64,000 bases of DNA from Stichopus chloronotus. Lineage: Eukaryota; Echinodermata; Holothuroidea; Aspidochirotida; Stichopodidae. The notes beneath the pieces are model-generated. The model was given only the letters and a program-made list of their open reading frames with translations, ran no database searches and was not told where the DNA came from. The stretch covers positions 11,305,929 to 11,369,928 of the forward strand of contig CM037838.1 in assembly GCA_021234535.1 (NCBI GenBank), given 5' to 3'. The translations under genes were made by a program, and so were the position numbers. Positions 6,357 to 64,000 of this stretch are shown piece by piece. How positions within the stretch are numbered: the first letter of the stretch is position 1; each line of letters begins with the position of its first letter.

Positions 6357-6983
6357 CTATAAATTAGAGGTGATCAAACAATAAAGTTTTCAAGTGTTAT
6401 CTTTGTTTTGTAAATTTATTGGCGTATCTATGTATGCTTTCCCCTCTGAATGCATACACTTGTAAGGAAATTTAATTGTTGAAAACGGACAGGTAGTATT
6501 TATCGCTGTAGGAGATCTCAGCAAAAATAATGACGTAGTATTTAGCATACGCTACTCAATCATCGAATTTCACATTGTGTGCAATAAATAGTGATTTTAG
6601 TACCGCACACGATATAGTAATAGCATTAATACTAATAGAAACCTTTGTAGCATTGTATGCTTTGTCCCATCAGTACTTTGGAAAGTATTACTGATCTTTG
6701 TTTCTATTTGCAAGTATTACTCCTAAGATCTTTGAGGTAACTTGTTGATTAATCTTGTTCAGACATATTTTGCATATCGCAAAAATGCTTTCAACAAAAA
6801 GGAGAGACACTGTCATTATCTAACGTTATTTGACTCCCTTTTCAGATAACAAAAAAAGAAAACACACTTTACAGTGGACTTAGGTTACATATAAGAAACA
6901 TAACTTACAACGAAACGTTAAACACCGAAGTGGGAATCAGCAAATTTAATAGTTCTCCTTTTTACGATCATCATTTTACTGAC

Positions 6984-30260: not shown

Positions 30261-31204
30261 TAACCCATACGTGGTTTAATGTGACACATACTAATGCTAT
30301 TATATCAGATTCAGAAAAAAATCTCTTTAGCAGATCAGCAAAACCACAGTGCATTTCTACAATCTGGTTACTGTCAAGAACTGCCCGTTTAGGTACTCTG
30401 TCGGACCACATGTATGTCCAGTCGGTCAGAACCGTGCTGTGACTCAGTCTTACTTTTCGTTATCAATACATGCTTTGATGTGATAATATATAAAATGTCC
30501 AAGGGAAGAGTTGACGACTGGTCTAGTAGTCTGTAAATCATTCGCGACCCAAGCGGCTTTTCGTGAACCAACAGGAAACATCTGGATAACCACATTTAGG
30601 TTGCAACTCATCATTTAAAAAGTGCCAAAAAGGCGTAAATGCAGACGATGAAAATGAAAGTAAACAAATAATAATCATTACCGGGTAAATTCAGATCCGA
30701 AAACAAACTTGCATCGAAGTTACAAAGATGGGAGCAGAGTGAATTATCTAACCTGCCAGAGACCAGTGGTAAGAATGAGACGGTGAAAATTGCGAAAAAA
30801 CTTCAACACTGAAAGGAAAGTAGAAGAAGAGAGATTGTTACCATTTTATTTTCAAATCCAATTGGATATAATCAAATTATCTTCGAGTTAAAGCTCAAAA
30901 CAAAGTGAAAATGGCATTGACGTTATTAGAATCATTTACATCATTGCCATGTATCAAGAGTGTGGCTATGAAGTTCCAATAAAGCGTTCTAGTAACAGTT
31001 TCCGTTGTCTCAGATAAATCGTACAAAACTAATGTTAAAGCTGCCTAAAACAGCATTGTCCCAACCTTGGCACTTACCAATCATACTCAAGATGAACACA
31101 CTTACTTAGTCATTTACATATGGCGGTCACAAACAACAATCAAAACTCGAATACAATGAAGCAAAAGAGGAATTGATCTATTAACAGTTTGAAAATGGTG
31201 CCCC

Positions 31205-35932: not shown

Positions 35933-36069
35933 CTTTAACTTTTCTTGATTTCAGTGGAGGTGGAATCAATCCAACCGGAATAGTTTCTGGCAGCTGATAA
36001 CTTTCAAACCTATTGAGAGAAGCAGTGTCATCATCATTGTATGAAGGGGTAGGTGTTGGTGAATTTCTT
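35933..36069 (-). CDS. Exon e of gene B, proline-rich acidic/basic tail
   Basis: After the acceptor cttcag the exon starts in phase 2, which fits the end of a3 exactly (CTG GT plus A). It reads RNSPTPTPSYNDDDTASLNR, FESYQLPETIPVGLIPPPLK, SRKVK. The length is 137 bases if the GTATTT donor is used. That donor is weak; read-through would add a short tail and stop at about 35.89 kb. Homology with the remnant at 2098-2212 stops just after this point. No domain recognised: the segment looks disordered, with SP/TP sites and a YQLPETIP motif. Confidence 0.6.
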
Positions 36070-42000: not shown

Positions 42001-45000
42001 TATATGTTTCTGCCGTGTACCATTTTTAAAGATGGAATCCTTTGTGACAAACGTCATAACAAGTGAAGTAAAATTATGTTTCTTTTTTTATAGAAATGTA
42101 CACACAAATATATTCATTGCTCAAGACAAAAAATATATTAATTTCTCCAAGTTTGGTTTACGCCTGAGAAAATTTACAGCGGTGCTTAGGTTGGGTAAGG
42201 TAAGAGTTATTTTATCCTTGTTTACTAAATCTTTTCAAAAATAGTCAACCTCACTTCACCACCTTATTAAACAGCCAGGTGTATGATGATATAGAATATT
42301 ATTTCAATATTCCATGCTTTATTTTAACTTCCCGACGACTATAGCAACATCCTACTTTTGAAATATTGTTCCGCGTAAAGTGTTCTGAGGGAAATGATTA
42401 GTTTAGTCTGTAAATTTAGATGAAACAGATCCAGCTGAGAAAATAATATATCAGTTTATACAGCAAGTACATTTCACGGGGCCACTCTGTCTTCTACTGC
42501 ATTTTACACATTCATTTAATATTTTTACTGAATATAAAAAACAGTTTGTTGATTCTTTTAGGCAAGTCGTATAATCTTATTGAAGTTCCAAATTTGAATT
42601 TTCAAGTATTTTGATGTATTTTATGTTCTATAGAGAGCAGACGGTTACATTTAAACCTACCCTCTAAACAGGTTGGTCACGTTTGCCTCGCTATCAACGC
42701 TTTGGTGAAAAAATAGCCAAATTGATAAAGAAGTACGCATTGTTGGGAGGGTCTATCATTCAAGTAAAGAAGGGTAACTTCTGATCAACTCCGGTGCTTT
42801 GTACCCACCAGTAACGTGCACACCTTATAACTAATCCTTTCATTTCAAATAAATTATTTGTTGTAGCTATATTTTTTGTGATCTTGCGGTTAAAATGCAT
42901 TGAAACACTTATTAAGGAACTTTTTTTTTTGAGGGGGGTTAATCAATTAAAAACAAACATGTTCAGTCCCTTGTTTTTATAAGTTAGGCCTATTATGGAA
43001 TTTTCATGTTTCATAAAAAGCGGTAAAAGTAATTGCTGAAACTAGCTTAAAGAGATTGGCTGCAACTTGACTTTCAAATTCATTCGAAGGTAGCCTAATG
43101 TAAAAGCACATCTATTACGACTATAAACGTTCAACGTTATGGTAATATTTTTGTACGACATGTAATTTGTCGTGATAATCATCTCCTAACGATTTCATTA
43201 AAGTATTTGATAAAATATTTAGGACTTGCAGAAAATCTGGAACGAAAACAAAATGATCTTCAGACCAAGTAATAATAACTATTGATATGGAGACTGAAAA
43301 GTGATTATCTTCCTGGATTGAGAAGCCTGTGGAGTCTTCAAATAACAAGGCCTAACTTCGACCTTAGCAATTGTCTTGTCCCGTTTTCTATGTAACGTAC
43401 TTTTCTCAATTTACCTTTGTAAATCTTGATTTATCAATTATTATTGTGAACATACTAACGTAAGGCTAAGATCTAAAAATTTAGTACGCTAGGCCTGTGC
43501 TTTACACCTTACCTTCAAATTCCATACATAAAACACAGCATTAACCAGACGGCTGTTTATTAATACCCTGAGAGTTAAATGAGTTGTTAGCTGTGTCACC
43601 AATCTCAGAGCAATGACTGAAGTACACACTGTATTGAATATTACGAGTAATATGTCTCCTACAGTCAATGTTCACAAACAGTTATTCACGAATTTCACGT
43701 ACAGGTGTTTCTATTGTTATTGCTGATATGCATTGTAATGTTATGTAAATGTGTCTCCATTGAGTTGTAATAATACAAAAATGAATAAATACAGGGAGAG
43801 AATCAAAGCGTTGACGTCCTTTCAATGCACTTATGGTCATTTCAAAAGCAGGATGATACAACAATTTGTTTATTTTTTTATTTATGTAATCCTATAAGCT
43901 GACAATGGACGACGTAATCCCCTTAAGGAAACAGCAAGTCATTTCCGAAATTAATATTAAGGCCATCAATCTCGATTTATGATCCCAGCAAATTATTATC
44001 CCACTGTTGATATTGACAGTGTTTTCTTTTTTTTTACTGCTGCTACCAGGCTATCGAAACCGTTGTTTGTATTTACTTATTGTTTTGTATGTTCATTACA
44101 GTGACGATAATACATGTAAACTACCACAAGAAGAAATTACAGTAATTCCCTAAAATGTTCATTCAATTTCAGTTGAATCTAATTTTATGTCGACGAGAGA
44201 GATGAATCTGCAGATAGAGAGGATTCGGTTAAAATAAACTTGTGGCAGTATGTAATAATTAGACTATGGGAACCAGAAATCGAGGGCAGTATGGTAGAGT
44301 AACAACTTTAGAGCTTCTCACATAAACAATTTTGTGAAACCTTGTTTTGTTAAGTAAAGTAATTATTTTATGATGTGTCTAAGCACGATGATCCTGATAT
44401 ACTGTAATTTCGTTACTTTTACCACTCTCACAATATTGTTACTTTTTTTATATTATAGTAAGAGATCGGAATAAAGTCATACTGAACTGAACTGGAACTA
44501 AACAGTAGGAGGAGGATTACAATAAAAATATGAAAACAAATATTACAACAATTCAAATATGAAGAAAAAAATGTTACAACTCTTTCCAACTTTTCGTGCA
44601 TAATTAAATTTTCCTCATTGTAATGTAATGTAGTGATTGAGTTTGCATGGACTAGGAGGCGGTTGTTGAAATTCAGCATGCAGTATGAATTAATTTAGAT
44701 AATCAGGTGATCATTGGCTTTCTGAGAAAAAAAAGTGGGGCTGATCAAATTGATAAACTCCTCAGATCTAATTTCGATGCAATAATTTAAAGGGCGATCG
44801 ACATATTTGCGGAGCGGGTTGAAGGGGCGAGGGGTTTAAGTTGGAAACAATCAGAAATGGCACTATCCAAAACAAGCTCCAAAACTATAGTTGGCGTGTT
44901 GACGTACTGAGAAAATGTTTTAATCAAAATGTCTCCTATAGATCGTGACCTGCGACATATTGGCTTTCCCAGCGTAGCCCAGAAAGATTAACCTTTAAAA

Positions 45001-48000
45001 ATAAAAATTAAAAAAAAAAAACGGGAGTATGACCTGGTCAGGAAATAGTGTCAGCTGGTACTAATGGGGGGGGGGGGCTCTGCTAAATTAAAAATATTGC
45101 AAGCATTGTCCTATTGATTATTACTTTTACGGTGGATTAAGGATGAGGTCTACTAGAGGGTACAACATTGATTTTGTGTAGTATCATTCAATAATTTTCA
45201 GGAGCTGGAATAACATGTGAATCTTTGCTAGAAAGAGACTTTAATAAAAGACAAATTGAAAAACGATTTTATATATCATTTTTAGGAGGGAGTAGATCTC
45301 TGTAGTTTATTTGGTGCAGTTGGCCTGGGGAGGAATGTAAATGTCGCATGTTAGCTTGTCTTTTACAACAGTTATGGTGTCAGCATTCATCTGTAGTGAA
45401 GTGTACAGCTATTGTGTGGCAACTTTCAGTCCACGAGATCTGTAGAGTAAGTCTCAGAAAGTAGAGTAAATTTTAGTTGATTTTGTAGAAGTTGACTGTG
45501 AATGTATGTAGAACTTCAGTTGCACTCCAAAGTCACAACTTATATATATATATTTCACAATTGCTATTACAAGCTTGGGAAATATAAATAAATCAGTCAC
45601 GTCTACCAATTTGATATTTATCAATGTTACAGATACAGATTTAATTTTGTTTTGGTTTATACATCCAACCAAATGGTTTTGTTTTCTTTAAATATTACAT
45701 TGACATTACAGTGATATGATCTTGACTTACGTCATTGTTAGATGCATTCTCCAGAAGTAGAATGGTACATCTCTGCAGTAGCTCACTGTGGCTCTTCCAT
45801 ATGTTTACCTGACTTGAACACAGTCTCCTGACAGTATTGACGTCATCAACCTTTACAAATAATCAATAGTGAACACATCGTTGTTACCTTAAGCCCGGTA
45901 ACAATAGTGCCATTTAACACACAATATTTAACTTCAACTAAATAATTGAATATATAATTGTGCCCATTGAATTGATCATAAATGTCGTTTGAAACAGAAC
46001 AGCTTCCCGATATCCTTCCTCTTGGCTCTCCGGAATCTGTAAATCGATTGTTAACATTTTGCAGTCATTCATGTAAATGGCAATTTAAGTTGTCCAATGT
46101 TAGTTGAAAGTTGAATCGCGATACTGTGACCCTGACTTTACATATAATAATATCTATCAAAGGCAATTCCTACAAAATTGGGAGAACAATCAAAGAATTT
46201 AAAGCACAACTAGCACACTGTTGTATAGAAGAAACATATAAACATGTCTTGATATCTTTACAAGAAGAATCACTTTGAGACTAAAAATGTTTTTTAATAT
46301 ATGTCATTTAAGTAAAAATGACATAACGACATGACAAAACCGTGATACTGAACAGAGAATGCATTGATTAATGTCTGTTTATTATCTAAAGTAAATGTAG
46401 TAATTATCTGTCTGGCCACGTTTCCAGCAATTAAGAGGAATCGTATCCTACAGTTTCATTCAAATCTCATTTCTCGGAGTATCATTTTCAAAGTTGATAA
46501 GCTCTCGACCTAGGAAGGTCATTGGCGATAGAAGGACAGTTGTATTCCGCCAGCAGTGATTTTTTACGTCACTAAGACATATTGTCGTATTTTGAACTGA
46601 GTGATTTTGTTTTGCAATTTTGCAGTCACTTGGATCGACGATATATTGTCGCAACGAAATGCGGTTTTACTGTCATGGTTTGATCAGTAAATTATCACCT
46701 TCGCATTGAATATCAGTTTAATGGAGATTTGTTATGACAAATGCAATCAGCAAGTTGAACATATTCTTAAAATATTTCTTCCAGCTTAATGCTAGGAAGC
46801 TCTGTTCAAAGTTGTGATGTGAAAATAACACCACGTTTACAATTATCCCACAACATACGTTATCTGAAGGAAACGGTTTTTAAATAACATTAGTTTTGTC
46901 ACTTTGTAGGAATCTGATTTCTTGTAATGTTCAAAAGTTAAAAGCATAGCTATTGCTTAGATTCAGACCTGTCATAAATCAGAATGCAGAGCATCACATA
47001 ACTTCCAACATTCAAGTCTAATAATTTGATGATTTAGACCCGTCACAGTCTAGAATAAACAGCTGCATGGATAGCTGCAAGTTGAATCATGTACATGGCT
47101 GTATGTTATAAAGTATACGTATTGGCTTATCGTGACCTTTCGTGCGTACTGTAGAACCACAACTCATGTAATATTTTCATCTTGGAATCTCATTCCAGAA
47201 CATGCCTCAACCAAGCAAAATTTATAACGTATTAAATTAAGACAGCTGAACCTCATTTCGTATGGTAAGGTTAAATTTTCAAGGCGTATCATTTTTACGC
47301 TGTTATATGTTTATTACAGGTAGATTGCTTAAACTCACATGAAAAAAAAAAAATACTAAATTATTTCTCAGTAAGGCATTAGTAACAGAACAAAGGTTTA
47401 GTGTGTGAACTCGGAACAAAGTGCCTACCGTAAAACATATTGTGAAACAGGTACATCTGACTTACCTCCCAACGTCCAGATTGAAAATTAAAACAGTAAC
47501 CATAGCGACACCAGGTAACTGCAAAGAAGCAATCATTTATACATGGGATGGTTATGGTAAGTATAGCAATTTATCATAAGTGGATTAGTGGAAACATTAA
47601 CAACCAAAAACGTGTGTATTGGGTGCTTTTGACATCAAACAGTGCTAAGACATACCAGTAGCGTGTTTAAAGGGGCTTGGGGGGTTAGGGGTCACAGTGT
47701 TTCACCTCCGAAGCCAGTCGGGGGAAAATCCCTTCATTGGGATTTTAGGGTAAAGGGGAAAAGAAAAAGATTGAAGACTCTAGCCAGGTTTGGATAGGGG
47801 AATCCCCCTTTGGAGGGGATGCTCCATCATTCGGAGAGTCTTGATCGATACGATACAGAATGCAGTCCGCCGCAGTTCGCTCTCCAGAGGAAGTTTTTTT
47901 CTTAGCACTACGCGACCTTTAACTTTTCACTAGTGCCACCCCACATTACGAGACAGTACAGGCCCCTCTGCCACCTTGATAAGTAACATAGAAGCAGAGT

Positions 48001-51000
48001 ACATAGTTTTTGTAGGCCTATAGGTGATTTCATCAGCTGTTGCAAAGCCTGTTGCAGCTCTTCTCTCACGTGTTGGCCATGCGGTATGTCTATAGTGACC
48101 AGAGGAGAGAGGTAGAACGTATACGTCCAATAGAACCCAACTGCAAAGACCATTATTGACCTGTATAAGCTTTTAATTCGTACCGATATTCTAACATATT
48201 ACTGTGGGATAACTTAAAAAAATGCGCGCTTCCCTCGAACATTTTAGATTTAAGAAAAAAAAAATCAGCGCCAATACTATGTTCTTCTAGTAAATACACA
48301 TTTCATGGAAATGGCTTGAAACAAGTACCGTATACTTTTTCGATCATCTCAAACAGCTTTCTTGACCAAATGACTGGACTAATGATCTTAAACTCACAGT
48401 CCTGTCAATGTACTTTATGTGGCACACTGCGGCCTACCACATATTGAGTACAACCTGAACTTTATGTCATTGACAGCGAATTTCGCAAAATCTGAAACGA
48501 AAGACACCTGATAAATAGGGCCTCTAAAACAAATTTAAGGCATTCTTTTTTCTTTTCATTGGAGCTTGCGGGGCTTTCACCCTGGACCCCCATCGGGGCT
48601 TTGCCCCTGGACTCTGACGAGGGCCCTGCACCCAACGCCTGCGAACTCGCTCTTTGATACGTGGTGCACCGAGTGTGTACTAATGACACTCCTATCTATG
48701 TCAATCACATGTTGCACCCCCACCTCTGAAATCCTGCACACGTCATTGAGACAAACGCTTTAAGTACGTCATCTAAGGTAATGGCATATCCAACATGTAT
48801 AAAGGTATCGGTCTTGGTGGCACTCAATTGACTTCATACAATACAAGAGTACCTCGTATTGCCTTTGTTTACATTATCAATGTACGTAGATTCAGAAAGT
48901 TTCACGTTGATGAGATTGGACTGAAAATGTTTCTTTTTAATTGTCACTAAAGCCATGTTTTATTGACAAGGAAAAAGAAATATATTAGGTGAAATTTGCC
49001 TAACAGTAGAAGTCATAATGACCAACCCAGCTAAAACGAGGGCTTTCTTTGGCAAAAACAATAACATATTCGTTTCTTCTGCTGCCCTCTATTGGTTGCG
49101 ATATGTTCTAGTTGATGCCTTTTAACATATATACAGTAAACTTGTAAAAGGGTGAGCAAAACCTGATCACTAACCCAAAGATAGAGCCACCTTTAGTTGT
49201 CACACAATGACACCCAAAGTAAAACCAACACCTGAAACACTCTTTCATTGTAGAACAATCTCTTTCAGCCACTCACTCCCAAGGGAGAACCTTGGATAAT
49301 TTCAACATTTCAATCAAATTTTAAGACATGTTTTGTTCTTTAGACACAGACAATTTCACTTGGTAGGGACCAGAGACGTATCAGAAATACATCATGTTTT
49401 GTGTATTTTGTGTTATCATCAGAATAACAACATGCTACGATGGTGTTGATGTTATATTGTTATCACAATTAATGAAGTTATTAATAAAGTAATTAAGACG
49501 ATAGAAGACACCTAACAGTGTACCATGGGGGCCTGGTTTCGTTCAGCGTTTTTTATTTTTTGGGGGGGTGGGGAGACTTACAATAGGAAGACGTTGTGAA
49601 AGCCCGTTAGGTCTAGGTCTTTCGAATCAAATGTCTTTCTTTCGAATGTTGTAAAAATAACGCTGTGTCACTAATCAAGAACGGAAACAAGTTTTGATGC
49701 GAACCTGTCAGCTTCTCAAGATATTGAAATATATGCCAGTGTTGAATCTGCAGCGATTTGAGAAATCTGAATGATAACAACAGTTGCATGACTATCAATT
49801 GGAATCATTTATCCAAGCAATGAACAATACAAGGTGTACAACTAAATACACAACAGAATAGTAAGAAAACGTTAATTAACACTATTGCATAAAAGAAGCA
49901 TAGCTACATATTGATCATGTTTACATTACCTCAAGAGAAATAGTATGTGGAAAAACACCATACATCACAAACAAAGCAAAATGATAGGGAACAAAATACG
50001 ACTTGTAATCATGAATGAAAGTTTAAGGGTTTAGTTTAATTTAACTATTACAAGAAATAAGACAATCACCTTTATTTTCGTTCATGACTATTATACCAAT
50101 ACAAATGTTTTAGAAGAATATCTTTTGTCACGAATAAAACTGGAAATTTATTTCTTGATTACATTTTTAATTAAACGTCGGTGACGAACTCTACGTGAAT
50201 TAGTACGTTGACCTAACATTATCATCATCCACTAAACTACGTCCTGCTTTGAACTGATCTCTTAGTGTCAGGATTACTACAATAATCTGATCCTGACTGA
50301 TAATCTGTCAATCCAATTTTCTTTTTTGAGTGATGATCGATCTTTACCTTTGATGTTTCTGTTGATAATGTCAGCAGCCTGAACAGTCCTTGACAATGAA
50401 AGGGGCAACAAACAATCTCCGAACCTGTGACAGAAATTAATATATTGTTAATGGAAAGAAAGAGTAATGTTAATTCAGGGAGATCCCTGGTTCACCTATT
50501 GTTGATAATTGTCATGTCACAACGTAAAAAAACAATTACATTGTATAAGGAGCTACCACATAGCAGTAAATAGTGTTGTATGATGTTTTTATATTCTGTT
50601 TATTACTGCCAATCAGATAAATAAAACACAAATATCACCCGCATTTATTTTTGTTTTTTTTTTTGAGGGGGGGATATATTTACAGTTATTTCTCAACATA
50701 AAGGAGAATTCAAACATTGCAGTGGATTTTACGTCAATGCATGTATTTTTTTCAGTCATTTAACTGTTGCATTGTTGTTTTGCTGGGTACACGGGTATCT
50801 TACATAAGATACCAAGACTTGGCTCTGATATTGTTAATCAGGTGTAAAGATATCAAGTGTTACACAAATCTACTTGTATCCCTAACTAACACTATTTTAT
50901 TGGCATTTCCATTCAATGAGACACGTTATGTTACACTAGCGAAGTAAAATTCTTTTCATATGGTTCTTCATAGATTATGACTTGAGGTATTTGGGTTGAT

Positions 51001-54000
51001 TCCGTCGTGTGTTTTTTAAGTATTTGTTCAGTTTATAATTTCATTTGTGTTTTCTTTTTATAAGTCCCCGGACAATTTAATGTCTCACTGTTTTGCAGTT
51101 TGGAGTTTTTGAAACAATTCCACTTTAACGTTAAATGTTACACTTGCTTTTATTGAACACATATTTGAATTGAATGGAAAGCGTAGGCCGAATGACGTCC
51201 ATTATAATTTTATTTACATATGGTAATCTACATTGCTGTATGAAGTATTTCACTAATGATTATTGCATTTTCTGATCCACTGTCACTGAGAATTGATCCC
51301 CTACCGGATACGGACTATGAGACCTAATACACTAAATTCAGCAGTCTTACACACAACTAGCCCTATCATGTGTTGGGGACGAATAGAAAATATTAAGCTA
51401 GGGAGGTCTGACTGTAAAAATTTCTAAGCAGTGAAACACCATGAGGTGGCGTGGATATCTCGAGGAAAAAAAAAATCCTCTCTTCACCGACGGCCGAAAC
51501 AACATTTTTCAGGTGCCAAATTTTGAGACAGGGATCTCACGTCTGCAATTTGCTTTCATTTAATGAGAAAAATTATTATGTCAGCAAAAATGCCTACATA
51601 TCATACAGCGTGGGATGATACAAGGAGTACTATTGATTAATTACACTGTTTAATTTATTTCCAGAACAATTGACAAATATTGACGAAGGGTGAAGTTTCC
51701 CCTCACTTTCCTTTTCGACCGAGTCTAAAATGACCTTTTCTAGCCCTCTACTGTTACGCCGCTACTACGCATTTTACAATAAACCATATCGAAACCAAGG
51801 ATCTGTTTTGGATTAACTTCAGCTCAACTGGGTCGATCCATATGACTACCAGTTTTTATCAAGTACCAATAGTACCATTTATCCAACTCTCTATAGTATG
51901 TGGTCATTCGGAAAGTTTTCTGCAATTTATAATGATAATAAAATTTTCGTAGTGATGTCTAAATTCTTCATTATGTAGCAAGATACCATTTTGCTGAGGG
52001 CCAGGGTGATTTAAACCTAAAACATCCACGCCCCTCGGTGTCCACCTTTGATCTTTATTATTTAAGATGCCATTGCAGTAAAATGCAATGTATTTTTAGT
52101 CTCATCAATTCAAAAAAATTAAAACAAGCTAAAACTTACGAGTGACATCAGTTTAAATAAATTGCAGTTTAAAAGTTTCACAGTATAACTGTTACTTTAC
52201 TTACGATATTTCTTTTAGTCTTGTTGATTCCAGACTATAAGCACAAATCTTCATAACTTCATCTTCTGACAGTTCTCTCACTTTCTTTTCAGTCTTCTTC
52301 TCTGTCTCTATGTGTATCTTCTCTACAGTCAAGAGTTTTGGTAAAGTTTGTCCTGATCGGAGTTTTATTTCGTCTTTATCAACTTGTTCAAATGACTGGT
52401 TCAAAGTAACGCATGATATGGGTATCTAAGGAACAGAATAAACCCTACCATGAAGAGGCAACAAATTGTTCAAAACCTCACAAATTATGAAAAAACACAT
52501 GCAGTTTATAAAATATTTATATAAAAGGACACTCTGTATTTGTAAGATTTTCCTCAAGTGGGTCTTTCACGTACTTCTGTTGAAATTGATAGCCGTGAAA
52601 GCACGGCTATCGATTTATCGATACATAGTTCCATATTTAGTGATATCCATGTTGAGGTCCTCTTATTATTCGGAAGAGTCATTATTCTGAAAGGTAGTCA
52701 TTCCTAAGTCAGAATGAAGGTCATTATTCCGAAGAGTCGTTCTTCCGGAGGACTATTATTCCGAATCTAAGACAAAGGTCATGACTTAAAAGGGTCACTT
52801 CTTTTACTCAAAAAACAATATTTGGAAGGGTTGTGATTCGAAAATGATGGTCATTATTCCAAATGGTCGTTATTTCTAATAAAATATACCTAATCAATCT
52901 TCGTAAATATTTCACAATTGTTATCACAAGCCAGAAAAATATCAATAGATTAAATACTTCTACCACTTCCATTTAGATAAATGTTATGGCACAGATTTAG
53001 TTATTGTTTTTATACATATCGACCAAATGATTTTTTTCTTTAAATATTGCAATGATAATACAATACTATAATATATTAAATGAACGATCTTGACTTACGT
53101 CATTGTTTGATGCATTCTCCAGAAGTAGAATGGTGCGTCTCTGTTGTAGCTCACTGTGGAAATCCCGTATATGTATCTCACTTGAACACAGTTTCTTGAC
53201 AGTACTGACGTCATCGACCTTTGCAGATAATCAATAGTGAACATATCATTGTCACCTTAAGCCAGGTGGCACCAATGCCATTCAACACGCTATATTCAAC
53301 ATTCAACTAAATTAGTGTACATTGAATTGTTCATTAAAGCAGTTTGAAACAGCATAGCTTCACGATTTTCTTCCATCTTGGTTATCTGGAACCGCTAAAT
53401 CAATTTTGTAGTTCATATTTTGCAGTTAAGTAGTCAAGGAATTCAATAGCACAACTAGTACACTGTTGTGTTAAAGAAACACATAAACATGTATTTTTAT
53501 CTTTACAAGTAGACTCATTTTGAGAGTAAAATTTGTTTAAATATGTGTCATTTTAGCAAAGAATTGCAAAATGCCTCATTAAGAAAAGACGTTAGAAAAC
53601 TGTAATACTGAACAGAGAATGCTTCATTGATTGATGTTTTTTTATTATCTAGAGTACATGTAGTAATTAGTTTGGTCACTTTTCCAGCAACTAAGAGGAA
53701 TCTGAGTCTACAGTATCATTCAATTCTCACTTCTCAGGCTATCATTTTCAAAGTTGATAATCTCCCGTCCTAGGGAGATTATTCCTCTTGAGGGCAATGC
53801 AAAGGTGTTAGCGATAGAATGGCATTTGTATTCATTTCGCTTGTAATGAATTATTACTGCACTATAACATATTGACAATCATTTTGAACTGTGTGCATTT
53901 TCTCTTTCAATTTCCCAGTCACTGGGATCGACGATACACTATCGTAACAAAGTGGGGTTAACTGTACCAATTTGAGTAGTAAATTAGTAGCTTTACATTG

Positions 54001-56468
54001 AATATGAAAGTAATGAAAATTTGATATGAAATGCAATCAGGAAATTGAGCATATTCTTACAGGGGCTAGATGAGATATTTTAGTCACTTGGCTAGTGGAG
54101 CTATATATTGTACTGTGCACCCATGAAAGAATGGTTGCCATGGAAACGCTTGGAGTGGATGAGTAGCGACAACCCAGGGGTAGAGTGACCATGGGTACAG
54201 GAGGGTCCTGTTGGGTGGTGTAAATGAAAACGTGTCCGTGCCAATGTGTGTGTGTGGGTGCGTGGGTGTGTGCGTCCGGACCTGTCCAAATTGTGGTTTT
54301 TCCAGAATAGTTTGAAAAGCCTATGAGCGATTAAGTTGAAACTTGGTATATGTTTTGCATGATGCCAATATGTGCAAGATGTATCAGTTGTATAATAAAT
54401 CGAGTCAGATTTGCTGATTTTTCACGGAAAAAAGGGCTATTTTGCCCCAAAATTGCTATTTCCAGCATATCTTGAGAGGTATTTGAGCATTTAGTACAAA
54501 TTTTTGCAAACACTTACCTGAGAATGAAAAATTTCAAGGTATATCACTTTTGTCGTAAAAAGAGTAAAATTTGCTGATTTTTGAGAAAAAAAAAATTTTG
54601 CCCCAAAATTGCTATTTCCAGCATATCGTGAAAAATATTTGAGCATTTAATGCAAAATTTTGCAAAAACTTACATGAGAAAGAAATATTCAAGGTATATC
54701 ACTTTTGAATGAATGAATGAATGAATGAATGAATGAATGAATGAATGGTTTATTCACAGTCTCTAAGTTGACTACAAGGCATGCACGGTCGTGCTGAAAA
54801 CAAAATAACCAATGTTAAATAGTAGAAAACAATTTAAAATAACAGAAAGCAAAGAAAGAACATCAAATGTATACAAAAGGCATTTACTTAACATTGAGCT
54901 TCATTACAAAATTATTCGCATTAGAAAAGAGAAAATGTTTTAGGTGTTTCTTGAAACTATGTATACTGTGCATGCAGTAAACAGAGTGAAATTTTCTGAT
55001 TTTTTAGAAAAAAAAAAATTTTGCCCCAAAATTTGCATTTCCAGAATATCTTGAGAGCTATTAATCCAACTAGCTTAAAGTTTTGTAAGTACTTACCTGA
55101 AAACACATTGTTCAACATAATATTACTGTAATGGTAAATTGAGTCAAAATTTGCTGATTTTTTGAAAGAAAAGCCAATTTTGCCCCCAAAATTGCTATTT
55201 CCAGCATATCTTGAAAAATATTTGAGCGTTTAATGCAAAATTTTGCAAAAACTTACATGACAATAAAATATTCAAGGTATATCACTTTTGTAGTAAAGAG
55301 AGTGAAATTTGCTGATTTTTTAGGAAAAAAAAGAAAAATTTTGCCCCAAAATTTGCATTTCTAGCATATCTTGAAAACTATTAAACCAATTGACTTAAAG
55401 TTTTGTAAGTTCTTAGCAATAAACTTTTCCCATTTCCCATGTGCAGGCCCCGTACTGAAATCAATGCACATGTTGGTGATGAGATACGCAACTCCGTGGA
55501 TTTACCTCTTGTTATTTCTTTCATTTAAATGATAGTGATAAAAACAACACGATACCAATCATCCCCCTTGATACTTTATCTGAAGAAAACTTTTGTTTTT
55601 TTTTTTAAAGCAATAACTTTATCATTTTTTTTAAGGAATCTGATCCTCTTACGTTTAAATGTTAAAGGCATATATCTATCGTCCATTCAGTCCAATTATG
55701 TATCATAATGCATTACGTCACATATTCAAATCTAATAATTTGATGATTGAGAGCTATTATTGTCATCATTAGAAACAATACCTGCATAGAAGAAAAATGT
55801 TGTATCCTGTACATGGCTGTATGTCATGTCTCAGAGGCAAAGTTTTGCCTCTGGGACAATTGTAAGTATGGTAAGTATTGTAAGTATTAGTAAAATATCC
55901 AAGTACTGTCATGACCTTTCCTGGTACTATCGAAGCAGAACTCATGTATTACTTTTATCTAAAAAACTCATTGCAGAACATTCTGGAACCAAGGAAAATT
56001 TACAATGTGTTAAATTAAGACAGCTGCAACTCATTACGTATAGTAATGTAAATTCTGAAATTGTGTATTTTATATGTATTCTCTCGTGTGTGTAATATAA
56101 TCATCCAAAAGAAGATCAAAATGTTTATTCAATAATTACTCAATATGGAATGCATGATCAACGAGACAAATGCCAATTGTGTTAACTCGGGACAATCTGC
56201 CTAGGAACACATAGTAAAACAGGTACATCTGACTCACCTCCCAAAAACCAGACTCAAAATTAAAACGGTAACCATAGCGACACCAGGTAACTGTAAAGAA
56301 GGAAGTATATATGATATGGGAAGTATACGGTAAGTAGTCCATTGAAACAGAAACGCCTCATCAATGTGTGTAATGGCTGTGGTGACCTCGAACATTGCTA
56401 GGACAAACGCTATAAGCACAGTATCTGCAAGAGCGTTCTCATCTAAGGTATGATATCTCCACCATATT

Positions 56469-56532
<64 letters not shown>

Positions 56533-59500
56533 ACAGAAGTATTTTTGTTTATATCATACGTGTGCATTTAGTCTATAAATTAAACGAAGTTAAACGAAAA
56601 ATGCTCTTTTTCATATAATCAAGTGAAATTTGCCAAACAATAATAGTCATAATAACTTACTCTGCGAAAAACAGGCTACAGCAGGGCATTTGCGACATCA
56701 TAACGATATCTGTTTCTTACTTTAATCTATTCGCTGGCAAATTTTCACATTGATGCTATGTAGAGTATACAGTAAACGTGATAAACAAAGAGGACAATCT
56801 TACCAAGAAACACTAAATAAAGCTAATCACTTCTATTTTTCAAAGAAACATAGGTTTCTTAGTAAAATCAAGCATCCCATACCCATAGTAAAATCCCATA
56901 TACCCACAGTGAAATCAAGCATCTGAAATATTCAGGGTCTTTACAACAGAGCATTCCTTTTAAGTCACCTAATTTAATTTAAAGAAAAAAAATATTTCAA
57001 TAATTTTCAACTATTGAAAAATCATTCGACATCCAGGACTCGCACGAAAGTATATCAAACACACTTGAATATGTATGTATCCCAAGATAGCAATATTTAC
57101 ACATATATTTAAGCCAGATATAAGCAAAAATACTACCGATTACTCCTGAAATGTATGTTATGTACAACTTTGAATCCACCTCATGCAGGTGCATATGAAA
57201 AAGTAATGTATTCCCTTGGGTTTCACTTTACAGCTTTGAAGTTCAGCCTCCTCCGAAAATAACAATTGCGTTTTAGGTTCCTCCAATTTATTTGACCTTT
57301 AAAGCATTTCGTGTTTTATTGTGCACCACATGCTTCCTATAATAAATGATTGCAAATCCTCCACCATCTTCATATTTATGCTAATCTGCACCTATATGCT
57401 ATAATACTATTGCACACTACACAGACAATGGTGGTGGTTGTTAAAGGGGTATATAATGGACAAACAAAGTATACTGCAACGTCGGTAAACCCGCCTATAT
57501 TGATACAGATAAAACATCGTAGATATTGAATATTAATCTTTTTAGGCTCTCCAGTCTCTGCAATTTGAAATCGATAGGTCGAATAAAAACGTGTAAAAGA
57601 CCACAAAATCAGTACACATATTATTTTTAATTAACCCAGAAAAATCATCAAGGCACTATATTTCACTTATTTCAATCAAGTCACTCGATAACATCAAGTA
57701 ATGAACTTGTTAGTGTAAAGCAGTGTTTTCTTTGAAAATGTCCCTATGATACCACTGTGTCACTGGCTAAGCATGAAAGACAACTTTTAAAACACACAAC
57801 TTCTCCTGATTTTTAAACAAATGTGACCATTTTTTTTTCTGCCTCAAAGATCTAAGAAAATTAGATATTAACGTCACTTGCACAACTTTTCAATCAAGAA
57901 AAATTACTATATAGATTAAATTACTTAACACAATGAAAATATCTTACACAAAAATGTTTTCATCTCCAGCCTCTTTGTTTTCTTTTTAAATGATCGTAAT
58001 CCATCTGTATGGTACGAATATCTCTACTTATGATTAAAATTGAAAGTTTACTCTTTGTTTTCTTTTCTAATCAAACATCGGTAATAAGCTGTGTTACATT
58101 GACCCACATAATCATCATCCATTAAATTACTTCATGCCTTAAGCAGATGGTTGCAGTACCATGGGACGAGCTTCCTATTCTGATCTGATACTGATTTGTG
58201 ATCCGACAATCAAGTTTATTTTATAAATATTGATCGAGCTTTACCTCCGATGTTTCTGTTGATAATTTCAGTAGCCTGAACCGTCTTTGACAATGAAAGG
58301 GGCAGTAAACAATTTCTGAACCTGAAGAAGAAATTACACATTGTCATTGAAAAGAAAAGAAAATGTTTGTTCAAAGGTAAACATGAAAACAAAAATACTT
58401 GTTACATTTTAGAAGAGACATTTTTTTTTAATCCGGAACCCAGGTATTTGACCTAAGAGAGGTACCCTGCCCTGAAATTGCTACTCACATGTAAAATTTT
58501 CAAGTGTGACAAAATACAGCTTGTATGCCTAAGATCACTTTATTGACATGGCGATAGAATCAGATACATTACGTTATACGAGTAAATGTAAATGTAAGTA
58601 AATGTTGCATTATCACTTCACAATGAACGCGTGGTCTAACGAATGTGATATTTCCCCTCACCCTACCGACTATAAAATAAGGGGATTTGTGTTGATTCCT
58701 GAGTGTTTTGTTCCTTTACTTTTAATTTTACTTCCGTTGTGTTCATTCAAGTCTGTTATTTTGAAGTTTTTTTGTTTGTAATGATCTACTATATTCTGTG
58801 TTATAAGGCAAGCGTGCTGTTTACATTTTTTTCGAGATTTTGGCACGAATCACTTTTCGATGTCAATTTTTGCACAAACATTGAATGAATAAATCTTTGA
58901 ATTGACTGTTGAAAGTTTAATGTCGTTATTCAAAACTTTCCTTTTTTTATTTATAAACTGCGTTGCCATAATAAACACATTGCTAAGTGAAGTATTACCT
59001 AATAACACAGATCGCAGGTTTGTGGCATTCCCTGCCACTGAAAGCCGATCTGCGTGTCTGCAAAATAATCTAAGCAGTGCCAACGTTATTTGGGAAGGAG
59101 AGTGAAAGAAAATCCCCTTCCCCTAGCTTCCCTTTTAAACATAACAGCACTAATTGGGAGTTGTATTCTGCCTGTACCCAATTTGGCATTAGGGATCTGA
59201 CAACTGCATTATTTTTATTTCTAAGAGAGAAATCAATTTATGATGATTAATACATGTCATATGGATTAAGATGGCACAAGAATAACAGTGAATTATAGCT
59301 TATCCTCTTTAATATATTTTAGGGGCAATTGGCAAATATTGGAGAATATGCCCTTGCGACCCATCTTTCTCTTTTGGACTGATTCTACAATGCCCCCTTC
59401 CACCCCTCCCCATTTTCGCCTCCGCAGTGTATTCTCATTACACCATATGGAAGCCAAGTGTCCTTTTTTCTCTGATTCGATGCACAAGGTCGATATACAA

Positions 59501-62162
59501 GATTGTCAGTACTTACCGATCAGCAATTATAATGCCATTCATCCGACTACAGAAAATGGTCTGTAGTCTTAATATTTTACAGATGTTTTACTTTTGCTTT
59601 GCTAATGATATTTCTTTTAGTCCTTTTGATAGCATTTTCATGCCATCCTCTTAACAAATGCCGCGATTCTAATAAATTACTAAATAAATCAAGACTTGTT
59701 TGACGAAGACTAAGGCCTACTTATACTTCTGACGGTAATAGGACTAAAGTTGTCTTTAAAATCTTGGTATGGCATGGCATGGTAGCTGTTAGTAGCTGTG
59801 GGAAAAGCTAGCTGCGCACAGGGTTCCCATACAGAGGAACCCTACCTAGCTATGGAGGGTGGCAAGGCATCCTTTACTTTTTGACTGTTCTCTCTGTACT
59901 AGTAAATGTTCAGTGGGAGAACCACAGTAGTACATCGTCATCTATTACATTTTGCCACTGCTTGGCGAATGTTTCAATGTTTGATCAGGACCATTAATTA
60001 CGAGCATTTCTCCTTTCACACGTTTCAGACAGGAAAACGGGACAGGAAAATAGATGGGCTCACAAGAATATCGATTAAAACAGCCCACCACACCTCTCGG
60101 CTTCCGTACATTTGAGATGCGATAGAGAGATGGCCTCAAACCAGTCGTCAGGGAGACAGAATTTGCTTTGGATTAAAGATCGTTATAGTAACAGTGACAC
60201 GAGTAACTGATTATTAAACATGGGTGTGAAGGTAGGGGCAACTTTACTACAAATTGAAAGAGCATAACATATGTATATAATGAACGTATGACATATAGGA
60301 TGAGATATATTAGGCGCGTAAAGAGGACCGTCACATGGGGGTCCTTATCTGAAGAACAACCCTTTTGGGCGCTCCGTGGGACAGAATAACTATGGCACTA
60401 TCGCTTGCAGTGGAAATGCAGCTTGGCTTTCACCCCCCCCCCCCCCCACCATTCCTTAATGGACAAAGACACCACATTCAGGTTTGTTCGCTAAGCTGCA
60501 TCTGTTAAGCCTTAAAAAATATCACATGTTCATAATTTCTCAATTAATGAAAACAAAATGAATCTATAAAAACATAGTAAGAATTTAGATTGCTTCTGCC
60601 TAGAATATTTACACCTATAGGATATGTTAGCATTTTTATAGAGTTACTTTTGCGTTCATTCGAGAAATTGCAAACATGAAATCCCTGCTTCAAAACTGTG
60701 TATATGCAGGAAGTGCCGTTCCCGACTGTCTGGGGTATTTGAAAGCCAAAATGTTCTGACGCGCTCCGCGCTAATGATGGTGGCGCTCTGCCTAGATAGT
60801 CCTTAGGGTCGCTTTATTGAGTGGTTTGAGTTTATTTGAGCCCATTTTGCTTCAAACTAATTGATCTTTATTGATATTTTTGAGATATGATAACCAATCG
60901 GGTCGCCATTACATATGTTTGTTTTCAGTGGATATGTTCAGATCATGTACAACAGTTTGACTAGCTGGCGTGCACGCACACAGGAGCACAATGTTCGCTC
61001 AGGTAGAGGCCTACTGTCAAAAATCGCCACCCTCTCAATACAGGAACCCTAATCCTGTCAGCATTCACTCCCCTACCCCCACCCCTTTAATATATTTAAG
61101 GAACAGGGGATACTTCTTTTATGCAGCGCCCTTAAAAGCCATTTTTGCCCTCACTCTGACTGAAATTGCTATCTCCACCATTAGTGGAGCTTACAGTGCA
61201 GGTATCTCTCATAGTTTTCACCCTTGTCGCCTGGCATGTTCACAGGCCTTTGTTGATGTGACGTTTGCCTTAAACCTTACTGTGGTTCTTCTCTATATTC
61301 TAGGTGCAAAGTTCAATTTCTCAACAGTTTTTCAACGAATATGTTCTTTAAAATGATGATGAACTTATCAGTCAATGATGAAATTTGGGTTGTATACACC
61401 CCTTATACGTTGCGTCAAGGAGACGACATCTATTCTAGGAGGCAATATATAAAAAGATACGTGCTCCACATATATTTCAATTAACTGATCTAACGACTAG
61501 TTGTAAGGCCTTCCATACTTTGCGACGTGTCTCAATATTCAAGTGGCAAGACCTGGTTGTGTTGCATATACAGTCGCATAATGTGGAAGGGGCCTTACGA
61601 CAGGGGCTAAATTCATTGCCCTGAAAGTTCCAATTAAATCCACCACGCACCTTTATCCCGCCCCACTGTCTGTCTAAAACTCCTCCTTGTGCATGGGACA
61701 CAATCCCAATTTAAAGTGTTTCATAACCTGATGAGCATACAAAGACAACGTGGGTAATCAAATCATTCCGTTCCTTTTTCATAAAAACTGATCTGCATTT
61801 TTTCATGTGAATCATAAAACATCAGAAACAATTGAGAATTTTATTTACCAGTAATCAAAATCGAAGCTTGGAGTGATGTGGAGTAACTGCTAAAATCAAA
61901 TGTGGGGTTAACATTCAAGATCTTTTAAACACTGCTTCATTCTCTGTTAAACTCACGATATCTCTTTTAGTCTTCTTGATCTTAGTGAATAAGCACAAAT
62001 TTTTGCGACTTCATCTTCTGACAGTTCTCTCTCTTCCTCTGTCTCTATGAGTATCTTCTCCACTGTCAAGAGTTTTGGTAAAGTTTGTACTGATTGAAGG
62101 TTTATTTCGTCCTTATCATCTTTTTCAAATGATTGGCTCAAAGTGATGCACGATATGGGTAT
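35933..62162 (-). CDS. NLR-family receptor gene, 3' part, with tandem four-exon cassettes ('gene B')
   Basis: Ten short exons on the minus strand can be chained in frame: a1 62162-61957, b1 58321-58245, c1 56290-56238, d1 53218-53099, a2 52425-52205, b2 50424-50348, c2 47518-47466, d2 45850-45731, a3 40927-40689 and e 36069-35933. All have AG acceptors and GT donors and no stops. Phases run 0-2, 2-1, 1-0, 0-0 through each cassette. Each a-b-c-d cassette encodes about 152-157 residues. Inference: it is the ligand-sensing C-terminus of a NACHT receptor, because exons a and e match NLR copy A and exon d matches the end of its NACHT exon. No NACHT exon is visible up to 64 kb, so the 5' part lies outside the window. 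Two separate transcripts remain an alternative, but no terminal exon separates the cassettes. Confidence 0.65.
37380..37600. repeat. GC-rich stretch with CGGTCGGT and GACGGTGACCGGCC repeats
   Basis: Three copies of a 15-bp unit (GACGGTGACCGGCCA) lie at 37521-37570 and CGGTCGGT words lie at 37380-37500. It is compositionally foreign to the surrounding AT-rich sequence. The 120-residue minus-strand frame across it has no recognisable domain. Possibly part of a transposon. Confidence 0.5.
38885..38990. repeat. ATT/ATA microsatellite
   Basis: Imperfect trinucleotide runs (TTATTATTATTA with ATG and ACT variants). With the similar tract at 39565-39700 it brackets the LINE fragment. Frames through it give poly-isoleucine and are not genes. 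Confidence 0.9.
39160..39565 (-). mobile_element. L1/Tx1-like LINE C-terminus (zf-RVT type) between ATT microsatellites
   Basis: The minus strand reads SLMGKVESNFCSFCKTEVET, MGHLFWGCRYTSSFILDVES and then SKEDIFFGYGNEKSHPYNFL. The CSFC..E.ET..HLFW.C pattern is the zinc-binding segment found C-terminal to reverse transcriptase in many LINEs. The frame continues about 100 residues to TGA/TAA sites. ATT/ATA microsatellites flank it on both sides (38885-38990 and 39565-39700). It lies in the intron of gene B between a3 and e. Confidence 0.65.
39565..39705. repeat. ATT microsatellite
   Basis: Imperfect (ATT)n with TTTTATT variants, immediately 5' of the minus-strand LINE fragment. Confidence 0.9.
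40689..40927 (-). CDS. Exon a3 of gene B, LRR-like, with internal 7-residue tandem repeat
   Basis: 239 bases, phase 0 to 2, with acceptor ctag and donor gtaagt. It reads IPISCVCLNGCSPRVSES, then a tandem heptad (GLTPQS, GLTSQS, GLILQS, GLSLSI), then LQQLEIIDSDRRLTTEEFVA and ILGYSSQCTSLKEL plus two bases. It matches the 3758-3960 exon of copy A closely, including ILGY.SQCT.L. It lacks the Glu/Lys block of a1 and a2, so it belongs to a second subtype that sits last before the tail. The repeat comes from a 21-bp unit at about 40800-40880 and keeps the frame. Confidence 0.78.
41185..41560 (+). mobile_element. LINE C-terminus (zf-RVT type), opposite orientation
   Basis: The plus strand reads NVCTFCFFLTETMKYLVFHC, TFSHGSWKFLFQNIFKGADN, FTDLKDI and then a stop. 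The CTFC....ET...V.HC.....W pattern matches the zf-RVT type segment at 39160-39565 on the other strand. Downstream sequence to about 42050 is AT-rich and may be the rest of the element. It lies in the gene B intron between d2 and a3. Confidence 0.55.
42060..45450. other. Gene B intron between d2 and a3, no exon found
   Basis: I looked on the minus strand for words shared with exons a-d and e and found none. AT-rich with a 12-base G run at 45066-45077. It may contain remnants of the LINE at 41185-41560. Confidence 0.45.
45731..45850 (-). CDS. Exon d2 of gene B, helical NACHT-tail-like segment
   Basis: 120 bases, phase 0 to 0, between a gtaaag acceptor and a gtaagt donor. It reads VDDVNTVRRLCSSQVNIWKS, HSELLQRCTILLLENASNND. 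Against d1, 11 of 40 residues differ and only two codons differ silently. The changes cluster at residues 14-20, while the first seven and last twelve residues are nearly unchanged. It leads in phase 0 to exon a3 across an intron of about 4.8 kb that holds a LINE fragment. Confidence 0.73.
47466..47518 (-). CDS. Exon c2 of gene B, Trp/Tyr-rich strand segment
   Basis: 53 bases, acceptor ttgcag, donor gtaag, phase 1 to 0. It reads TWCRYGYCFNFQSGRWE. It differs from c1 in three residues and is otherwise the same. A 1.1-kb insertion that is absent near c1 lies in the intron just upstream on the minus strand (about 48.74-47.67 kb). No stop or shift is present. Confidence 0.67.
47668..48744. repeat. 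Copy-specific insertion of about 1.1 kb in the intron before exon c2
   Basis: Flanking sequence (a GCTAAGACA-like word on the left and ACAAACGCTTTAAG on the right) is nearly continuous at 56390-56420 in the sister cassette, so the block between is an insertion. It carries a G-rich left end (TTTAAAGGGGCTTGGGG) and, near its right end, the GC-rich GGGGCTTTGCCCCTGG hairpin repeat. A minus-strand frame inside (48153-47910) has no recognisable domain. The element type is unknown. Confidence 0.5.
50348..50424 (-). CDS. Exon b2 of gene B, LRR-like strand and helix
   Basis: Length is 77 bases with a gtcacag acceptor and gtaaag donor, phase 2 to 1. It reads S-FGDCLLPLSLSRTVQAADII-NRNIK. Compared with b1 there are six replaced residues and three silent codon changes. 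It continues the strand begun by RLKEIS in a2. I know of no function for this segment beyond the LRR-like pattern. Confidence 0.72.
52205..52425 (-). CDS. Exon a2 of gene B, LRR-like
   Basis: The exon is 221 bases, phase 0 to 2, with an acceptor ccttag and donor gtaagt. It reads IPISCVTLNQSFEQVDKDEI, LPKLLTVEKIHIETEKKTEK, VRELSEDEVMKICAYSLE, ending RLKEI plus two bases. It starts in phase 0 directly after d1, 674 bases downstream on the minus strand. Compared with a1, the first codons differ only at third positions in IPIS (TCG/TCA), which is the pattern expected under protein-level constraint. The highly charged Glu/Lys stretch varies in length. Confidence 0.75.
53099..53218 (-). CDS. Exon d1 of gene B, helical NACHT-tail-like segment
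   Basis: Exactly 120 bases, phase 0 to 0, between a gcaaag acceptor and a gtaagt donor. It reads VDDVSTVKKLCSSEIHIRDF, HSELQQRRTILLLENASNND. It looks helical. Its second half resembles the end of the NACHT exon of copy A (YYSKILQRAEPRLLEIASRC), and both are followed by a phase-0 exon starting IPIS. It therefore seems to be a detached copy of the helical element that joins NACHT to LRR. Confidence 0.72.
54061..55490. repeat. Tandem array of about 156-bp units in the gene B intron d1/c1
   Basis: Five copies of the TTTTGCCCCAAAATT word start near 54440, 54596, 55019, 55179 and 55340. Each is followed by a TATTTCCAGCATATCTTGA-like segment, a GCAAAATTTTGCAAAAACTT segment and GTATATCACTTTTG. A GT-rich tract (54245-54275) precedes them, with a divergent first copy at about 54291. 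The block is absent at the matching place in the sister cassette (near 46780), so it entered after the duplication. A LINE end at 54707-54978 is nested in it. Confidence 0.75.
54707..54978 (-). mobile_element. 5'-truncated LINE 3' end with (CATT)n tail, inserted in a tandem repeat
   Basis: Read on the minus strand, about 54978-54900 encodes FKKHLKHFLFSNANN and then a stop, typical of the last residues of LINE ORF2. A short AT-rich 3' UTR follows and ends in about ten copies of a 4-bp CATT unit (54747-54707). It interrupts a tandem repeat of about 156 bp: the spacing between neighbouring copies grows from about 156 to 423 bp at this point. It is a typical 5'-truncated target-primed insertion. 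Confidence 0.6.
56238..56290 (-). CDS. Exon c1 of gene B, Trp/Tyr-rich strand segment
   Basis: A 53-base exon, acceptor tttacag, donor gtgag, phase 1 to 0. It reads TWCRYGYRFNFESGFWE after a shared valine codon. The alternation of aromatic and polar residues suggests a beta hairpin closing the LRR-like unit. Another frame would give a hydrophobic VAMVTVLILSLVFG run that looks like a membrane span. Splice phases from both neighbouring exons exclude that frame. The sister c2 has the same length. Confidence 0.65.
56472..56528. repeat. (AT)n microsatellite
   Basis: About 28 uninterrupted AT units in the gene B intron between b1 and c1. Absent at the matching place in the sister cassette. Confidence 0.95.
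58245..58321 (-). CDS. Exon b1 of gene B, LRR-like strand and helix
   Basis: This 77-base exon runs from a ttcttcag acceptor to a gtaaag donor, phase 2 to 1. Joined to a1 it reads S-FRNCLLPLSLSKTVQATEII-NRNIG. The F..C.LP.SLS pattern following LKEIS continues the LRR-like strand begun in exon a. Its sister b2 is the same length and differs in six residues. Confidence 0.7.
61957..62162 (-). CDS. Exon a1 of gene B, LRR-like
   Basis: The exon lies between a cag acceptor and a gtgagt donor, with 206 bases and phase 0 to 2. It reads IPISCITLSQSFEKDDKDEI, then LPKLLTVEKILIETEEE and RELSEDEVAKICAYSLRS, ending RLKEI plus two bases. The charged glutamate-rich middle is probably a solvent-exposed helix. 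The SEDEV..ICAYS..S..LKEI end has the spacing of a leucine-rich repeat helix and turn entering a strand. Its sister a2 is 15 bases longer in the Glu/Lys stretch, a whole number of codons. Confidence 0.72.
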
Positions 62163-62169
62163 CTGCGGA

Positions 62170-63570
62170 ACAGAATAAAACTTAGCTGTTTAGGTTAATC
62201 ATGTATACTCACAAACGTAATGACAACCTTAAACGTAACATGAATCATAAATGTTGTAGCCTCGACTTGTAAATGCAATAACTGACTCAAACATCAATGA
62301 AATAGTGTTCAGACACAAATTTAATGAATTCTATGAACACCGAAGTGTGACTAGGTGACCTCTGATTCGCATTTCACCAACCCGCATGAGGTCTGAGGCT
62401 ATTTGAATGTATTCTGTGTAATATCTGATTTTATACAGACATATACAGACAAGTGAAGACATGCTTTCTTAGGTAGGATGTAGCCATATAGGGTTCATCT
62501 AAGTTCCTGGTATTATTTTTTTTTTTCAGAAGGATATAAATCTGGATTTTGCTGTTATCAGCTAAAAGTCAAGCATTTCATTTTCTTTCATTGATTTGCA
62601 CATCCTTAAATTTGATATTATATTAAAATTTCGATTAAACATCTCTGTTTTCAGTTGTGGACTCTCTGGACTTTTTTTTTTGGTCCTTTTTTGAAATTTT
62701 GAGATAGTGCACTCTCTAGGATTCTTCCTGTCTTCCATTGAACACCATAGAGCTAATAATAACAGAAAAACATGGCACATATCGTCTTACAAGGGAATGC
62801 GGATTTTGTTTTACAGGAAAATGAATGAACCTTTTCTGAAACCAATACTTGGAGACATATATATAGTCATTGACTGTTGAAAAGAATTTATGATGTTGGC
62901 CTTCTCAAGAAATATGTTCCCCCTAGATCCATAAACTTGTTGCTGAAGGATGATTTGTTAACCCAAACTTCTTAGAATTTAACCATATAATACATCTCTT
63001 GTTACTTATCTTATGCAAAGTGTTTTGAAGAGACGAAACTTTTGTAGATGTTTATCAACGAGCCTGGATGATTTAACACTGATTAAAGCTGTATTTACTG
63101 TATGCCATGTTGTGGCAGTGTAAACAGCCAATTCCAGTCTCTATTTTTTTCATATGTACTTGCAACTTAAAGGTTGAGTCAAAATCGTTTTCTGCTACAC
63201 CTGCACACCATTAGTGATCTAGGTCCTGGTTGGGCTTTATAGCTTATTGGTTGAGTATAATAGTTGAAGTGGTACTCGGGATGTCCTGGCCAGCCAGCTG
63301 ACACGTCCCAAACAAAACGCTACTTCAGTGTATAATCCCAAGCAGTGAAAAATCCTGCCTGACTTTATTTCACCAATTCTAGTTCGCTGGAAAATATTGT
63401 TATAAACCTGTGAGTGATCAAATCAAACATATAGCTTAAATCTTCTTGCGGGACCGAATTTATGAAGGGGAGGGCATTGACCACAAAATACTAGGGCGTC
63501 ACCTTCTACCATGATCATTTACGAAACCACAAGGTTGAAATATGCCAGGGAGGAAAGAAGTTATGGTTAC
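62170..63570. other. Upstream of exon a1, no exon found
   Basis: A preceding exon d or NACHT exon must end in phase 0 before a1. No GAGAATGCATC-like exon d word or Walker motif is present up to the window edge, so it lies farther upstream or is lost. Confidence 0.45.
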
Positions 63571-63572
63571 GA

Positions 63573-63780
63573 ACATATACTCAAATAACTTCAACATACA
63601 CTCAACTGATCTCCAAATATACTCAAATGATCTCCAAATACACTCAAATGAGCTCCAAATATATTCAAATGACCTCCACATATACTCAACTGACTGTCAC
63701 ATAAACTAAAATGATCTCCACAAATACACAAATGACCTCCACATATATTCAAAGGACCTGCACATATACTAAAATGACAT
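63573..63780. repeat. Minisatellite, about ten copies of a 21-22-bp unit
   Basis: The unit is close to CATATACTCAAATGACCTCCA, with variants at two or three positions. Because most copies are 21 bp, two minus-strand frames stay open and read as heptads such as ICGGHLN. There are no spacers, so it is not a CRISPR-like array. No coding role supported. Confidence 0.85.
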
Positions 63781-64000
63781 GTGAAAAAGCACCCTTTAAT
63801 CGCACTGCCATTCCGGTTTTCGTTGCCCCAGGCACACATCAAGGCAACAAGGCAATCAATACCTTTCTCCACTGGTTGACTGGCCTCTTTTTTACAACAT
63901 AACATACAAAAGTGAAATTTACATTAAAATGTGTCCACATGCGGAATCTAACCGCGATTTAACATTGAATTATACTTTCAAACGAAAAAAAAATTGGTTC

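Follow-up and report, generated by a model that had tools for sequence, protein, structure and literature searches.

The window analysed here, 64,000 nucleotides (nt) of contig CM037838.1 of the sea cucumber Stichopus chloronotus, carries on its minus strand a series of exons arranged as tandem four-exon cassettes, a-b-c-d, each encoding one copy of a repeated protein module. We conclude that these exons probably form the 3′ portion of an NLR gene, in which the C-terminal arm of the receptor is a diverged solenoid resembling leucine-rich repeats (LRRs) and is built from whole genomic cassettes.

Cassette 1 begins with exon a1 (61957-62162; 206 nt, phase 0-2), continues with b1 (58245-58321; 77 nt, phase 2-1) and c1 (56238-56290; 53 nt, phase 1-0), and ends with d1 (53099-53218; 120 nt, phase 0-0), which from its sequence appears to be a copy of d0, the tail of the NACHT region. 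Cassette 2 follows in the same order with a2 (52205-52425; 221 nt, phase 0-2), b2 (50348-50424; 77 nt, phase 2-1), c2 (47466-47518; 53 nt, phase 1-0) and d2 (45731-45850; 120 nt, phase 0-0). All eight exons are preceded by AG and followed by GT, and when joined they give 927 nt without a stop codon. An earlier reading of the letters alone (the sequence-only reading) had proposed this twofold order between 62162 and 45731, and its exon lengths, phases, borders and open frame are all confirmed. It had also held that a cassette could be added or removed without breaking the frame. For the whole cassette this follows from lengths and phases; cassettes 1 and 2 comprise 456 and 471 nt, both divisible by three, and the only frame-neutral units are d, abc and abcd, while a, b or c alone breaks the frame. 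The d-to-a junctions and the junction of NACHT to a have phase 0 in common.

The paired exons are homologous, as had been supposed. Of 152 aligned residues, the two cassettes have 119 in common (78%); at the DNA level the exons are 85-89% identical, the 120-nt flanks 52-82%, and long stretches of the introns ~61-75%, a figure that varies with the scoring. The introns match, and the cassettes were therefore copied in tandem as one genomic unit, introns included. A false duplication in the assembly, or two assembled haplotypes, was considered and ruled out by inference, the divergence of the introns at these values being too high. A comparison of the two cassettes gives dN 0.126 and dS 0.286, and the ratio of 0.44 (bootstrap 0.26-0.78) fits protein-level constraint under purifying selection. 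The suggestion that the arrangement serves fast change of the receptor is not supported by a pair of cassettes at dS 0.29 under such selection. The non-coding DNA of the array contains simple repeats of its own: the c1-d1 intron has a tandem repeat of 160 bases (54976-55415), the b1-c1 intron has 28 copies of AT in a row (56472-56528), and upstream of a1 lies a minisatellite of 21, 42 or 63 bases (63572-63778).

The module is found in annotated proteins. A search with the two-cassette protein gave nine sea-cucumber proteins (best E=2e-79), a match that shows the cassette pair not to be a product of chance; a search with an alignment gave 54 and a third search 41, making 82 distinct proteins in total. 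All that bear a name are from Apostichopus japonicus or Holothuria leucospilota, a few being unnamed; the method requires shared words and has length limits, and the two larger searches each scored ~8000 candidates, so that absence from other groups means little. A hidden Markov model (HMM) derived solely from the two cassettes of the window was run on the 82 homologues. The d0 stretch is present in 71 of them and at least two cassette starts in 32, and 39 of the 50 scanned with Pfam have a NACHT match at E<=0.1, so the assignment of the module to NLR proteins stands. The general architecture is NACHT-d0-(abcd)n-abc, with one to four cassettes. A strict set containing d0, complete units and nothing else comprises 40 of the 82, with one cassette in 26, two in 10, three in 3 and four in 1, although P0024 and P0066 have no terminal unit at their ends, so that the counts for one and two cassettes are better taken as 25 and 9. 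P0059 has four cassette starts, with one unit split by the HMM. Cassette number is thus variable among related proteins, as had been claimed. None of the 11 Holothuria proteins fetched has more than one cassette start; P0012, an Apostichopus protein named NLRP3, has two. The window agrees with the homologue architecture from a1 to b3 (the second exon of a third cassette described below), with d0 lying outside it and c3 weak.

Some of these relatives have further features. P0069 and P0080 are NLRs bearing Ig domains and also carry cassettes. A hydrophobic stretch, LCQVPL..FAHM, lies inside the NACHT region at position 640 and 791. In P0080 its distance from NACHT is about that of the second transmembrane helix given for AjNLRC4 (776-795; PMC8699970), which may therefore belong to the NACHT fold. 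By eye, ~24 residues of d0 present in P0011 immediately ahead of exon a are missing from P0012, which could represent alternative splicing at the junction of NACHT and cassette.

Removal of a whole cassette in frame has a counterpart in the Apostichopus proteins P0058 and P0060, whose database names are isoform X2 and isoform X3. They share 643 identical residues, after which 175 residues of P0058 (644-818) are missing from P0060, and then a further 261 identical residues. By HMM coordinates the missing residues are one d-a-b-c block, removed in frame. The C-termini of the two proteins also differ. From their names and identical stretches they apparently derive from one gene.

The relationships of the cassettes were analysed in a tree of 93 units, which has few columns for so many rows and in which many forks are open. 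Cassettes 1 and 2 of the window are sisters (100/99), and probably arose by local duplication in the window's lineage. Their group comprises 20 interior cassettes, for the most part those that come first in their proteins; the second cassettes of P0010 and P0058 also belong here. Terminal units fall into groups of their own, as do the remaining interior cassettes. The third window cassette (a3-b3) groups with the exons of a broken NLR in the same window (96/95) and with NLRs mostly of a single cassette. Cassettes 1 and 2 fall with one Apostichopus interior group and the third with one terminal group, and both types therefore predate the split of the species. The order in P0061 is an interior cassette of the group of cassettes 1 and 2, an interior cassette of another group, and a terminal cassette of the group of the third. 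The sequence-only reading had called the cassettes interchangeable. This holds only in part; the tree mostly sorts them by their place in the protein (interior first, other interior, terminal), without free mixing.

The broken NLR spans 7339-2101 on the minus strand. In its relic at 4809-6363 the Walker-A piece does not share a frame with NACHT, and stops follow downstream; the 3′ end of the relic, before the GT donor, is the homologue of d0. The open reading frame of its NACHT matches PF05729 (E=4e-7). There follow exon a' (3758-3960, minus strand; 203 nt), with an internal stop, and exon b' (2101-2177, minus strand; 77 nt), with a GC donor in place of GT. The open piece at 7339-7043, upstream of NACHT, gave no Pfam match at E<=1 and may be the N-terminal domain. 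The last stretch before the phase-0 GT donor resembles exon d at 39% over 33 columns (E 0.43), which is weak alone; in P0023 and similar proteins the same residues match both this stretch and exons d1 and d2. The order NACHT-a'-b' places a and b directly after NACHT. Exon d copies the tail of the NACHT region; judged by sequence, it is a duplicate of the last 40 residues of that region. No homology to d0 or NACHT was found at 62163-64000, upstream of a1, and the start of the cassette gene and its NACHT part therefore lie outside the window.

The sequence-only reading had placed an exon named e after d2 and a3. That this exon is of a kind different from b was rejected, since it has exactly the length and phases of b and falls on the b portion of the profile. 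It is b3, the third copy reads a-b, and a third cassette therefore starts after d2. Exon a3 (40689-40927, minus strand; 239 nt, phase 0-2) opens a cassette of terminal type, and b3 (35933-36009, minus strand; 77 nt, phase 2-1) continues it; both are open with canonical borders. The greater length of a3 relative to a1 and a2 is due to a short in-frame repeat near 40815-40878, reading QSGLTSQSGLILQSGL. A weak candidate for the terminal exon c3 (30753-30808, minus strand; 56 nt, phase 1-0) was picked by eye; its phase fits, the acceptor is good, and a stop codon lies 6 nt on. Against a profile built from homologues it is no better than chance, taking the ninth row of 1189 splice-bounded candidates with E=2. 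Relics of reverse transcriptase occur on the minus strand at 9013-8783 and at 39814-39155, the second between a3 and b3, with matches to RVT_1 (E 1e-5) and zf-RVT (E 5e-4), both under the cut-off.

The attachment of a3-b3 to the preceding cassettes is open to another interpretation, in which a1-d2 would be one gene fragment and a3-b3 the 5′-truncated tail of a separate single-cassette NLR that is sister to the broken one between 7 and 2 kb, with the terminal cassette of the first gene elsewhere or lost. The sister relationship of a3 and b3 to a' and b', their place in a clade of mostly single-cassette NLRs, and the likeness of the DNA around exon a in the a3 region and the broken NLR (68% over ~300 nt) all weigh against a single gene. 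However, no relic of NACHT or d0 was found at 40928-45730, upstream of a3, phase 0 suits the joining of d2 to a3, both exons retain their open frames and borders, and P0061 passes from interior cassettes directly to a terminal cassette of this same clade. We regard two separate genes as rather unlikely.

The nature of the fold is the second point on which the interpretation turns. AlphaFold2 models the cassettes with confidence as strand-helix repeats, five in each cassette of ~155 residues and thus ~31 residues per repeat, with the strands 27-36 residues apart. An LRR has the motif LxxLxLxxN/CxL in a repeat of 20-30 residues. Only the strand at the a/b junction comes near to the full LRR form (e.g. 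LKEISFGDCLL), the others showing the strand part alone. The structural matches listed for a model of the cassettes only are by title mostly LRR proteins, with YdiF and CGD also present, and the module is placed where NOD2 and NLRP3 carry their LRRs. We therefore describe the arm as having a predicted LRR-like fold. Alternatively the cassettes would be a repeat particular to NLRs and not LRRs at all, either another beta-alpha solenoid or small domains, perhaps structural and not ligand-sensing. Several results point that way and count against the fold that we prefer. The best VIA Z for the model of the cassettes only is 6.4 (VIA-align matches are limited to Foldseek's top chains, and absence of a family there carries no weight), and the model has hairpin strands between repeats. 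No Pfam LRR family matches the window module at E<=1. Among 50 relatives, for which 25 of 28 families are listed, LRR_4 occurs in one, below threshold (E 0.06), and the FNIP repeat, which we take to be LRR-related, in one (E 0.03). A search of the PDB by sequence profile matched only the NACHT side of NLRs, and phmmer against the PDB with the module and with P0010 gave nothing useful. Set against these, the regularity of the strand-helix repeats, the titles of the structural matches and the position of the module argue for an LRR-like arm, and we consider a non-LRR repeat quite improbable. The remaining Pfam hits, whether in the module or in the cassette portions of its relatives (STPPase_N, Ras_bdg_2, Kelch_4, Dredd_N and others), all fell under the cut-off and were attributed to chance.

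It is likewise improbable that the gene is decaying and its cassettes no longer expressed, as with the neighbouring broken NLR: that relic, the reverse-transcriptase remnant in the a3-b3 intron and the lack of a start, NACHT or certain terminal exon in the window tell against an active gene, but from a1 to b3 all ten exons in succession keep an open frame, AG/GT borders and mutually compatible phases, and the dN/dS ratio of the cassettes, which reflects past selection as well, adds to this.

In NLRs generally the LRR arm binds or regulates, and NACHT oligomerises. The sequence-only reading had assigned the cassettes to the sensing region of the receptor, and this agrees with where they lie and with the fold predicted for them; by analogy with the LRRs of other NLRs we infer that the arm detects ligands and that its length tunes the available surface. 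In the mechanism proposed a NACHT tail and the first repeats would together make up the unit duplicated in tandem. The arm could then gain a cassette when similar introns undergo unequal exchange, and skipping of a cassette in splicing would shorten it. The phase 0 shared by the d-to-a and NACHT-to-a junctions allows a cassette to be inserted or skipped without a break in the frame, and probably without a break in the solenoid. The change of length may benefit the receptor. More tentatively, and with rather more doubt than confidence, we suggest a large family of sea-cucumber NLRs with a cryptic LRR arm that changes in steps of ~155 residues (five repeats) by germline gain and loss of cassettes and by splice skipping, such that one locus would yield receptors of different reach, and the sensor domains would have been disguised and modularised, not lost. 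If the cassettes are diverged LRRs, standard profiles may overlook a sensor arm in many sea-cucumber NLRs, and views on the loss of LRRs in echinoderm NLRs need revision. The cassette is in addition a testable unit of change in receptor length, one event of duplication or skipping corresponding to five repeats at once, and its origin is unusual in that the tail of the NACHT region is copied within the repeat unit.

Two known systems are of related kinds. The human NLR genes show exonic LRR modularity (Hoss et al. 2019, PMC6642158); as here, the sensor arm is formed by frame-preserving exons, and the solenoid becomes shorter when splicing omits them (as in NLRP3 without exon 5). The LRR exons of NLRP3 are 171 bp each and encode two canonical LRRs (PMC6642158). 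The human type of modularity, with exons of 171 bp that each preserve the frame alone, is not seen in exons of 206/221, 77, 53 and 120 nt; unlike NLRP3, the frame-neutral cassette consists of four unequal exons of mixed phases, with about five diverged repeats and a copy of the NACHT tail. In brown-algal ROCO genes LRR exons are shuffled (PMC11378527). They share with the present locus tandem LRR exons in candidate immune receptors, in variable number and with alternative splicing reported there, but have one 72-bp phase-2 exon per LRR and a ROC-COR GTPase, and are neither NLRs nor built of multi-exon cassettes.

Among sea-cucumber receptors, AjNLRC4 of Apostichopus japonicus is stated to be without LRRs (PMC8699970). 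The available descriptions of AjNLRC4 and of AjNLR-new (PMC13133943) contain no repeat module or exon cassettes, whereas the Apostichopus database protein P0012 and the Ig-bearing relatives P0069 and P0080 do have the cassette module. In Chiridota heheva 22 of 53 NLRs identified with a NACHT HMM are given as NACHT-only and one as having LRRs (PMC8913654); this count is based on profiles, and a module that has no Pfam model would be missed. Among the open-licence literature matches listed (titles and starts of abstracts) none describes a four-exon cassette. While modularity of LRR exons in NLRs and shuffling of LRR exons in ROCO genes are thus known in kind, what appears new is a four-exon, five-repeat cassette with an exon derived from the NACHT tail, and a predicted LRR-like arm in a family of receptors one member of which is described as having no LRRs (PMC8699970), and most members of which were counted as having none in a second species (PMC8913654).
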